A stretch of 14,029 nucleotides of DNA from a bacterium. Lineage in GTDB: Bacteria > SZUA-182 > DTGQ01. The notes beneath the pieces were generated by a model that did not search any database, was not told the origin of the DNA, and worked only from the letters and a program-made list of their open reading frames with translations. A program made the translations under genes and the position numbers. The DNA lies in assembly GCA_023512255.1 (NCBI GenBank), contig JAILZY010000086.1, positions 1 through 14,029 of the forward strand, written 5' to 3'. Shown one piece after another: positions 6,557 through 9,823 of the stretch. The first letter of the stretch is position 1; each line of letters starts with the position of its first letter.

Positions 6557-8914
6557 TCAGTTACTACTTAGAGCGATATCCAGGACCTCATCTACCCGAT
6601 CAACATATTTAAAATCAATTCCTTCAATCAATTGTGGAGAAATCTCCTCCACATCAACCTTATTTCGGGAAGGGAGAACTATCGTGGTGATACCTGCCCG
6701 CTTGGCCGCCAGCACTTTCTCTTTAATGCCACCAACCGGCAAAACCAGACCAGCAAGAGTTACCTCTCCAGTCATAGCCACATCCTTCTTCACAGGCCGT
6801 CCGCTCAAGATGGAAGCAATAGCAGTGGCAATGGCTGTTCCGGCTGAAGGCCCATCTTTCGGAATAGCACCGGCAGGTACATGGATATGCAGATCGCTGT
6901 GATCGTAAAAATCCTCCTTGATCCCATACCGACTGGCAATTGACCTAACATAGGAGAGTGCGGTTTTAACCGACTCTTGCATCACCTCACCCAACTGGCC
7001 GGTAATCGTTAATCCCTTCCTGCCTGGCATCCGTAAGGCCTCAATGAATAAGATCTCCCCACCGCTTTCGGTCCAAGCTAAGCCAGTTGCCACTCCTGGG
7101 GTAGAGGTGCGCCGGGCCATCTCTGGGAAAATTCTCGGTGCTCCCAGATATTCCCGAACCTTATCCGTGTTAATTAGCTCGTGCTGAACCCCATTTTCCC
7201 TAGTAGCTATCTGATAAGCTACCTTGCGGCAAATCTTGGCAATCTGCCGATCCAAATTCCTTACTCCAGCCTCCTGGGTGTAATTGGTGATAATCTCCTG
7301 AATGGCTGAGTCATCGAAAGAAATATTTTCTGGCCTAATACCGTGAGCCTCGATTTGCTTGGGAATAAGGTAATTTTTGGCAATATTGATCTTTTCTTCA
7401 TTGATGTAGCCAGAAAGACGCAAAACTTCCATTCGGTCCAGCAAAGCCGGATGAATAGGCTGCAAAACATTAGCCGTAGCAATAAACAGCACCTTGGATA
7501 GATCAAAGGGCAGATCAATATAGTGATCCATAAAACTGACATTTTGCTCTGGATCAAGTACCTCCAGCAGGGCAGAGGAGGGATCTCCCCGAAAATCCAC
7601 TCCTACCTTGTCAATCTCATCCAGCATAAAGACAGGATTATTGGTTCCAACCCTCTTGATGCTCTGTAAAATTTTCCCCGGCATGGCTCCGATATAGGTC
7701 CTGCGATGTCCCCTAATTTCTGCCTCATCCCGTATGCCACCCAGAGACATGCGGATAAATTTGCGGCCCATAGCCTTGGCAATTGACTGGCCTAGCGAGG
7801 TCTTGCCTACCCCAGGTGGGCCAACAAAGCACAGAATCGGCCCTTTCATGTCCTGCTTGAGCTTTCGCACAGCCAGATATTCGATCATCCGCTCTTTCAC
7901 TTCCTTCAAATCATAATGGTCATGCTCCAAAATTTCTCTGGCTCTCTCCAGATCAAGGTTATCCTGGGTCGATACCCGCCAAGGCAAATCCATCAGCCAG
8001 TCAAGATAGGTCCTGATGACCACATATTCAGGGGCCGCACTCGGGATAGTCTCCATCCGGCTCAATTCCTTTTCGGCTACCTTGCGCACCTCATCCGGCA
8101 AGTCCAAGCTCTCTAGCCGATCCCTCAGTTCCTTGATTTCAGCCTCCTGAGCGCTGCTTTCTCCAAGTTCTTTCTTAATAGCCTTCAGTTGCTCCCGCAG
8201 GAAGTACTCTCGCTGACTTTTAGAAATCTCATCAGCCACTTCAGACTGAATCTTGCCCCCCAGTTCCAGAATCTGAATTTCCTTATTCAACAAAGTCAAA
8301 AGTTGCTGTAGCTTTGGCTCCAAACCCTCAAGCTCCAAAATCTGCTGTCTCTCCTCGGCCTTAATGTTGATAATGGAAGCAATCATATAAACAACCGAGA
8401 AGGGGTCTTCCAAATTAGATACCGCAGACCCTAGTTCATCAGGCAGATAAGAGCTCAAAGCAACGATCCTCTGGAAGTTATCATTCAAATTCCTCAGCAG
8501 CGCCTCGGTTCGGTTTGTCCTCTGGTAGGTTTCCTCAATGATTTCAATTTGGCCAAGCAAATAAGGCTCGGTTTGGGTAATCTCCCCTAATCTGATTTTT
8601 TTTAATCCTTGAACCAAGAGTCTGAGACTTGAATCTGGCATCTTTACCAGTTTCAGGATGCCGACCGCGGTTCCAATATGATAGATATCATCGAAACCGA
8701 TTTCCTCCACCTTAGATGATTCTGGCTTGATCAAAAAGGTTCCGATAATCCGGTCTTTTTCCATAGCTGACTGGACCGCAGCAATGGATTTTCTCTTGCC
8801 AATTACCAGGGGAGATGCTGTGTATGGCAAAACAATCGTATTTTTTAATGGCTGAACCGGAATTAGCCGGCCAATTTTACCAAATTGATACTCTTCTATA
8901 TCAGTTATTTCCAT
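6557..8914 (-). CDS. lon: ATP-dependent Lon protease (LonA)
   Basis: The cytoplasmic AAA+ protease that degrades misfolded and regulatory proteins. At 785 residues it is full length. It has an N-terminal substrate-binding LON domain (about 14-205, [15 protein letters not shown]), a coiled helical region, the AAA+ module with Walker A GPPGVGKT (365-372) and Walker [10 protein letters not shown] (427-435), and the C-terminal serine-lysine protease domain. The catalytic dyad is Ser690 in PKDGPSAG and Lys733 in GGIKEK; the 43-residue distance equals that of E. coli Ser679-Lys722. The ATG at 8914 is preceded by GAGGAA eight bases away. The gene follows hsp20 by 75 bases on the same strand, so chaperone and protease are probably co-expressed under stress. 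The C terminus is complete. Confidence 0.98.
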
Positions 8915-8989: not shown

Positions 8990-9487
8990 TCAATAAGCGC
9001 TACCCCCTACCCCTATAGTAGTCGTACTCTCCTGAATGTTTTGGCTACATATTTTAGGCAGTCTTATGGTTAAAAAGCCATTTTCGTAATACACTCTAAT
9101 TCCCTCCTTATCAACCTCAAAGGGAATATGAATAATCCGCTCAAAGATACCATATTCGACCTCAAGCTGATGGTAGAGGATATTTGCCCCGCTGATTCTC
9201 TCCTTCCTCTGCCCCCAGATCACGAGGTAATTATCTCTAAAGCCAAGGCGAATATTATCCCCACTGATACCTGCCAGCTCAACCTCAATCACAATTTCCG
9301 AACTCAATTCATAGACATTAGTAAAGGGATACCAGCCTCGCTTTCGGGGGAAAAGTGAGGGCTTCTGGGGGTGAAATAGATCATAAAAAACCCTCTCCAT
9401 GTATGAGCAGCTAATCTCAAATCTCTTCTCATCTTTGCCTTTATCCTCTACTTCTATCTCAATCTTATTCATAGATAACTCACTCAT
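8990..9487 (-). CDS. hsp20: Small heat shock protein, Hsp20/alpha-crystallin family
   Basis: An ATP-independent holdase that binds unfolding proteins as an oligomer. The 165 residues comprise an N-terminal arm (1-50), an alpha-crystallin domain (about 52-145) with the hallmark ENGFLTIRLPK (135-145), and a short tail with I158-G-V160, a possible IxI/V oligomerisation motif. The domain has NVYELSSEIVIEVELAGIS (57-75), typical for the family. The ATG at 9487 has GGAGG seven bases upstream. A second ATG (codon 6) is less well placed. It is upstream of lon on the same strand, a pairing that makes sense for holding and then degrading damaged proteins. Its start region is duplicated (see 9474-9525), so translation may be coupled to a short upstream ORF. 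No CIRCE element was seen. Confidence 0.95.
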   Translation of the reverse strand: MSELSMNKIEIEVEDKGKDEKRFEISCSYMERVFYDLFHPQKPSLFPRKRGWYPFTNVYELSSEIVIEVELAGISGDNIRLGFRDNYLVIWGQRKERISGANILYHQLEVEYGIFERIIHIPFEVDKEGIRVYYENGFLTIRLPKICSQNIQESTTTIGVGGSAY

Positions 9488-9525
9488 AGATAAACCTCCG
9501 ATAACTCACTCATAGATAAACCTCC
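9474..9525. repeat. Perfect 26-bp tandem duplication over the hsp20 start
   Basis: Positions 9474-9499 and 9500-9525 are identical and directly adjacent. On the minus strand each unit carries GGAGGTTTATCT followed by ATGAGTGAGTTATC, so the ribosome-binding site, start codon and first four codons of hsp20 are all copied. Because 26 is not a multiple of three, the upstream start is out of frame with hsp20. The perfect identity points to a recent event, or to selection. Confidence 0.95.
9484..9513 (-). other. Nine-codon upstream ORF coupled to hsp20
   Basis: The duplicated start (ATG at 9513, with GGAGG seven bases upstream) reads MSELSEVYL and stops at TGA 9486-9484. This stop overlaps the hsp20 ATG (9487-9485) in the form ATGA, the classic layout for translational coupling. 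The second ribosome-binding site lies inside this ORF. Whether it tunes hsp20 translation is an inference from the layout; the reading itself is direct. Confidence 0.6.
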
Positions 9526-9567
9526 ACGAATCCAAGCTCAAAGAATTTATATCAAATAGTTATAAAT

Positions 9568-9593
9568 AATTATCTAATGCAATTATCTAATAC
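9568..9593. repeat. 13-bp near-perfect tandem repeat upstream of hsp20
   Basis: Two adjacent units AATTATCTAATGC (9568-9580) and AATTATCTAATAC (9581-9593) match at 11 or more of 13 positions. They lie about 80 bases upstream of the hsp20 ATG, where a regulator could bind. The sequence is AT-rich, so chance similarity is possible. Confidence 0.45.
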
Positions 9594-9823
9594 CCATAAG
9601 CAGTCTAAAATCAACAAAACAGACCTTATAAAATAAAAAAATCCTATATTAAACTTTCGGTAGATTTTTACCAATACGAGCACAAAGAAAAAATTCAAAA
9701 AAATCATATCTCTTCGCGGAGGCAAGATAGAAGTGGTGGCTTAAGATAATGTGGTTAGCTAAGAGATTTAATAATAATAACCTGACTGAAGGTGAGTACT
9801 CACTGTTTAGTGATTGCTGGTCT

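Follow-up and report, generated by a model that had tools for sequence, protein, structure and literature searches.

The hsp20 gene described here carries, across its own start codon, a 26-bp sequence in two perfect adjacent copies, which is very probably the product of a recent and most likely near-neutral short tandem duplication, the second to have occurred at this site, in a lineage that carries many such duplications. The duplication places a tiny open reading frame (ORF) directly ahead of the gene, and this leader ORF is most likely a by-product rather than a regulatory device. The window analyzed was a 14,029-nucleotide stretch of bacterial DNA (contig JAILZY010000086.1 of assembly GCA_023512255.1), and all positions given without a locus name are those of the window.

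Within the window, hsp20 (positions 8990 to 9487, minus strand) encodes a small heat-shock protein of 165 amino acids (Pfam PF00011 [HSP20]; E value, 6.7e-12), and the lon protease gene (6557 to 8914, minus strand; identified by Pfam) lies downstream of it. The first-pass annotation had described a perfect tandem duplication at 9474 to 9525 that doubles the GGAGG Shine-Dalgarno (SD) site, the ATG, and the first codons of hsp20, and this proved to be exact: positions 9474 to 9499 match positions 9500 to 9525 at 26 of 26 bases, both on reading of the sequence and in Tandem Repeats Finder (100%). On the minus strand, the leader runs ...GATTCGT GGAGGTTTATCTATGAGTGAGTTATC GGAGGTTTATCTATGAGTGAGTTATC TATGAATAAGATTGAG.... 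The upstream copy of the unit (9500 to 9525) holds SD1 (GGAGG, 9525 to 9521) and ATG1 (9513 to 9511), and the downstream copy (9474 to 9499) holds SD2 (GGAGG, 9499 to 9495) and ATG2 (9487 to 9485), which is the likely start of hsp20. The unit was not found elsewhere in the 3.83-Mb genome when up to three mismatches were allowed, and the leader had no match among plasmid and viral sequences. Farther upstream in the leader, TATTAGATAATTG and CATTAGATAATTA form a near-repeat (9570 to 9596, minus strand); the same-genus relative described below lacks the surrounding stretch.

ATG1 opens a nine-codon ORF, MSELSEVYL (9513 to 9484, minus strand; ATG AGT GAG TTA TCG GAG GTT TAT CTA TGA), which was recovered again in a baseline scan for leader ORFs. 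As annotated, its TGA (9486 to 9484) overlaps the hsp20 ATG as ATGA (9487 to 9484), and SD2 lies inside it. This precise overlap is automatic, because hsp20 starts with ATGA and the unit length of 26 equals 2 modulo 3; whenever an ATGA start is duplicated with a unit of 2 modulo 3, the TGA in the upstream frame falls exactly across the downstream ATG. ATGA begins 199 of the 704 sampled genes with an SD, and, given an ATGA start, about one-third of duplications would yield the overlap, barring an earlier stop.

Three relatives were compared at this locus. In G001, from the same genus, hsp20 has one start unit, GGGGAGGCTTGTCTATGAATGAAATCGAG, with a single GGAGG seven bases before the ATG and no leader ORF. 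The orthologue is 75% identical and begins MNEIEVEG, aligned to codon 6 of the window gene. The gene order DUF3795-hsp20-lon is kept in G001, and synteny with G001 extends over the rest of the contig. Between the window and G001, dN and dS were 0.14 and 1.86 for hsp20 and 0.044 and 1.09 for lon, and these sequence comparisons indicate that purifying selection acts on hsp20 between the two species. G003, from the same family, also keeps the DUF3795-hsp20-lon order, with one opposite-strand gene inserted; its hsp20 is frameshifted and its leader is unrelated. In G002, likewise from the same family, hsp20 is reduced to a C-terminal remnant ahead of lon. A protein search of genome contigs with the window protein returned no further relatives, and alignment matched one contig only, apparently that of G003. 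The single-unit state is thus seen in G001, the sole informative relative of the three and a distant one by its dS, and the age of the duplication is bounded solely by the identity of its two copies. As a separate observation, hsp20 ahead of lon looks to be decaying in the family (the G003 frameshift at L034:4609-4995 and the G002 remnant at L035:4900-5010).

The 26-bp unit overlaps a feature that the first-pass annotation had overlooked, an older, diverged tandem duplication of 15 bp (9464 to 9493, minus strand; TTATCTATGAGTGAG / TTATCTATGAATAAG, 13 of 15 bases identical), which is in frame, forms a period-15 array, and accounts for the first five hsp20 codons, MSELS, ahead of M6. The ATG at M6 (9472 to 9470), where the G001 protein begins, would be the ancestral start. 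In 1.17 Mb of the window genome there are 89 approximate 15-bp tandem pairs that match as well as this one, roughly one every 13 kb, so the older step rests mainly on the comparison with G001. In the simplest history, an in-frame 15-bp duplication would have added MSELS and shifted the hsp20 start five codons upstream, and the 26-bp duplication, still perfect and on that divergence presumably the later, would then have doubled the start region from the ribosome-binding site through the first codons, ATG included. Given the ATGA start and a length of 2 modulo 3, reading from ATG1 would run into a stop overlapping ATG2, and the nine-codon ORF would result.

Perfect duplications of this kind are frequent in the window genome. 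A sample of 79 stretches (1.175 Mb) contained 68 perfect tandem duplications with a unit of at least 15 bp, 20 of them with a unit of at least 20 bp. When the same 1.18 Mb was base-shuffled, perfect tandem pairs reaching 15 bp per unit were absent, and the hsp20 pair is therefore no chance match. The density of units of at least 15 bp was 5.8 per 100 kb, 4.6 times the 1.25 per 100 kb found in 400 kb of G001, and 200 kb of a distant genome yielded none. Units ranged from 10 to about 28 bp, and 40 of 63 junctions had no extra matching bases (examples are at L081:1762-1815, L082:13798-13849, and L092:6301-6353). The hsp20 case is an ordinary member of this population: like short tandem duplications of 10 to 30 bp that arise in replication or repair, it consists of adjacent identical units with a blunt junction and no flanking homology, and dozens of similar cases exist in the genome. 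It differs from most of the others in what it covers, namely, a ribosome-binding site and start codon; among the 68, 40 were intergenic and three lay across the 5' end of an ORF. Elsewhere, the 5' end of a long ORF contains a perfect 18-bp tandem duplication (L119:16519-16554) in which an ATG is repeated in frame, with no obvious SD; this is possibly a second start-region duplication in this genome. Ku-type end joining was considered as an origin of the blunt duplications and set aside, there being no Ku gene in the window genome or its relatives.

Could the second unit be an error of assembly, the real genome carrying only one? The draft assembly consists of 172 contigs, and G001, which alone among the close relatives has an intact gene, lacks the duplicated state. 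Against this stand the intact hsp20 reading frame and the synteny of the rest of the contig with G001. An array of 52 bp is, moreover, shorter than ordinary reads and k-mers, and its collapse or expansion would be unusual. We regard an artifact as most improbable.

We then considered whether the leader ORF might be functional, with translation of MSELSEVYL opening the RNA at the second GGAGG and reinitiation at the ATGA making hsp20 output dependent on the leader. The anatomy is right for this: SD1 is strong, nine sense codons follow, the stop and start overlap as ATGA, and SD2 lies within the ORF. SD-preceded short ORFs with an ATGA overlap are also rare (3 among 704 genes), and short leader ORFs with a strong SD that end near a gene start are uncommon (12 entries in the sample, two of which are the hsp20 locus in two frames or starts). 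Among overlapping gene pairs of archaea and Escherichia coli, strict coupling was found in 13 of the 14 tested (PMC6728339). The window arrangement resembles the ATGA termination-reinitiation pairs of that study in its overlap and in having an SD motif inside the upstream ORF. It differs in that the upstream ORF is nine codons long, is no gene, is unconserved, and has a start that is predicted to be buried. A search of the literature for start-region duplications that create coupled leader ORFs found nothing specific.

By RNA folding, the leader is predicted to form a hairpin (9496 to 9543, minus strand), not conserved in G001, in which 9531 to 9523 pairs with 9516 to 9508, burying ATG1, and 9543 to 9534 pairs with 9507 to 9504 and 9501 to 9496, covering part of SD2. 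ATG1 thus lies in a predicted stem of nine pairs (AUUCGUGGA with UCUAUGAGU) and is predicted to be less accessible than in any of the 80 GGAGG/ATG genes sampled. At 37°C, the opening cost of the initiation region, predicted from folding energies with an error of a few kilocalories per mole, was 15.9 kcal/mol for the leader ORF (99th percentile of the 80 genes), 8.3 kcal/mol for the hsp20 start (44th percentile), 12.8 kcal/mol for a one-unit version of the window made in silico (90th percentile), and 7.8 kcal/mol for the G001 hsp20 start (39th percentile), and both the contrast and the gain in accessibility weakened when 100 nt upstream was included (9.8 versus 12.4 kcal/mol). Coupling calls for an open leader start and an occluded downstream start, and the predicted costs are in the reverse order. 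With its start buried and that of hsp20 ordinary, the leader ORF should be poorly translated, and hsp20 should initiate alone at the second site. SD2 itself is predicted to pair with an upstream CUUU and stands at the 15th accessibility percentile (more occluded than in 85% of comparable genes), so that some dependence of hsp20 on upstream translation is possible on the model. Since the G001 gene has no leader ORF, the arrangement is explained by frame arithmetic, and hsp20 has a strong SD of its own, we consider a functional coupled leader unlikely. The first-pass annotation had allowed for either a regulatory value or a recent, neutral origin of the arrangement. Neutrality is favored by the single unit in G001, the high genomic background, and the automatic overlap, and the case for coupling is weakened by the predicted folding; a regulatory effect of the duplication is unlikely.

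On our preferred reading, that of a near-neutral duplication with an incidental ORF, translation of hsp20 would most likely begin directly at the second GGAGG and ATG, and ATG1 would stay buried in the hairpin, leaving the leader ORF little translated. If expression changed at all, the likeliest effect, judging from the predicted folds, would be a modest gain, because the new hsp20 start lies outside the ATG1 hairpin. A selective version of this history, in which two successive duplications remodeled the hsp20 start and the second was kept since it rescued translation through a start outside the hairpin, with the mini-ORF as a side product, seems to us improbable. If true, it would be a natural case of expression tuned by duplication of a gene's own initiation region.

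The first-pass annotation had also suggested that the two GGAGG sites might form alternative RNA structures, perhaps temperature-sensitive ones; in a temperature-sensing leader of this kind, the structures would open on heating. RNA thermometers classically act on small heat-shock genes, an example being the ROSE-type element of Pseudomonas ibpA, and ROSE elements are defined by an SD-pairing motif, U(U/C)GCU (PMC3669281). The window leader resembles them in belonging to an hsp20-family gene and in having a partly paired SD. It also differs from them: neither the leader nor the whole window had an Rfam match at the gathering threshold, thermometer families included; the predicted fold places no U(U/C)GCU motif opposite SD1 or SD2; and the fold energy was ordinary (z = −1.08, with 30 of 200 shuffled sequences at least as stable). 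The G001 leader folds differently, with neither leader length nor structure conserved there, and a conserved SD-masking hairpin of the ROSE or fourU sort is thus not seen here. At 20°C, the predicted accessibility of SD2 was 0.10, and at 50°C it was 0.28, an increase exceeding that in 88% of comparable genes, but the opening cost of the initiation region fell with temperature about as it does in an average gene. Taken together, these predictions lend no specific support to a temperature effect on the hsp20 leader, which is unlikely, and a temperature-sensing leader built from the two GGAGG sites is very unlikely.

The best candidate for a promoter or operator of hsp20-lon lies farther upstream, as judged from sequence conservation and motif spacing. 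A block of 19 bp, TTGGTAAAAATCTACCGAA (9674 to 9656, minus strand), is identical in G001 and in the same place, and together with a TAATAT (9651 to 9646) it forms an element spanning 9646 to 9674, in which TTGGTA and TAATAT are spaced by 17 nt. The element includes an inverted repeat, GGTA-N6-TACC, and may represent a promoter with an operator. Between the 19-bp block and hsp20, the leaders of the window and G001 differ greatly in length and sequence. A regulon sharing the 19-mer was considered and rejected, no second site with fewer than two mismatches being present in the window genome or G001; among partial matches, the best one in the window genome falls close to the end of a contig and has no heat-shock gene visible nearby.

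The observation most worth pursuing is that short, blunt tandem duplications are in excess in a genome without Ku, which is more curious than the hsp20 case itself. The hsp20 locus illustrates that a short chance duplication across a start codon can, in a single step, mimic a designed coupled leader ORF, and such anatomy, read in a single genome, should count as evidence of regulation only once relatives and a genome-wide baseline have been consulted. If selection did act on the duplication, the locus would offer a neat natural case of translation retuned by the copying of a start site.
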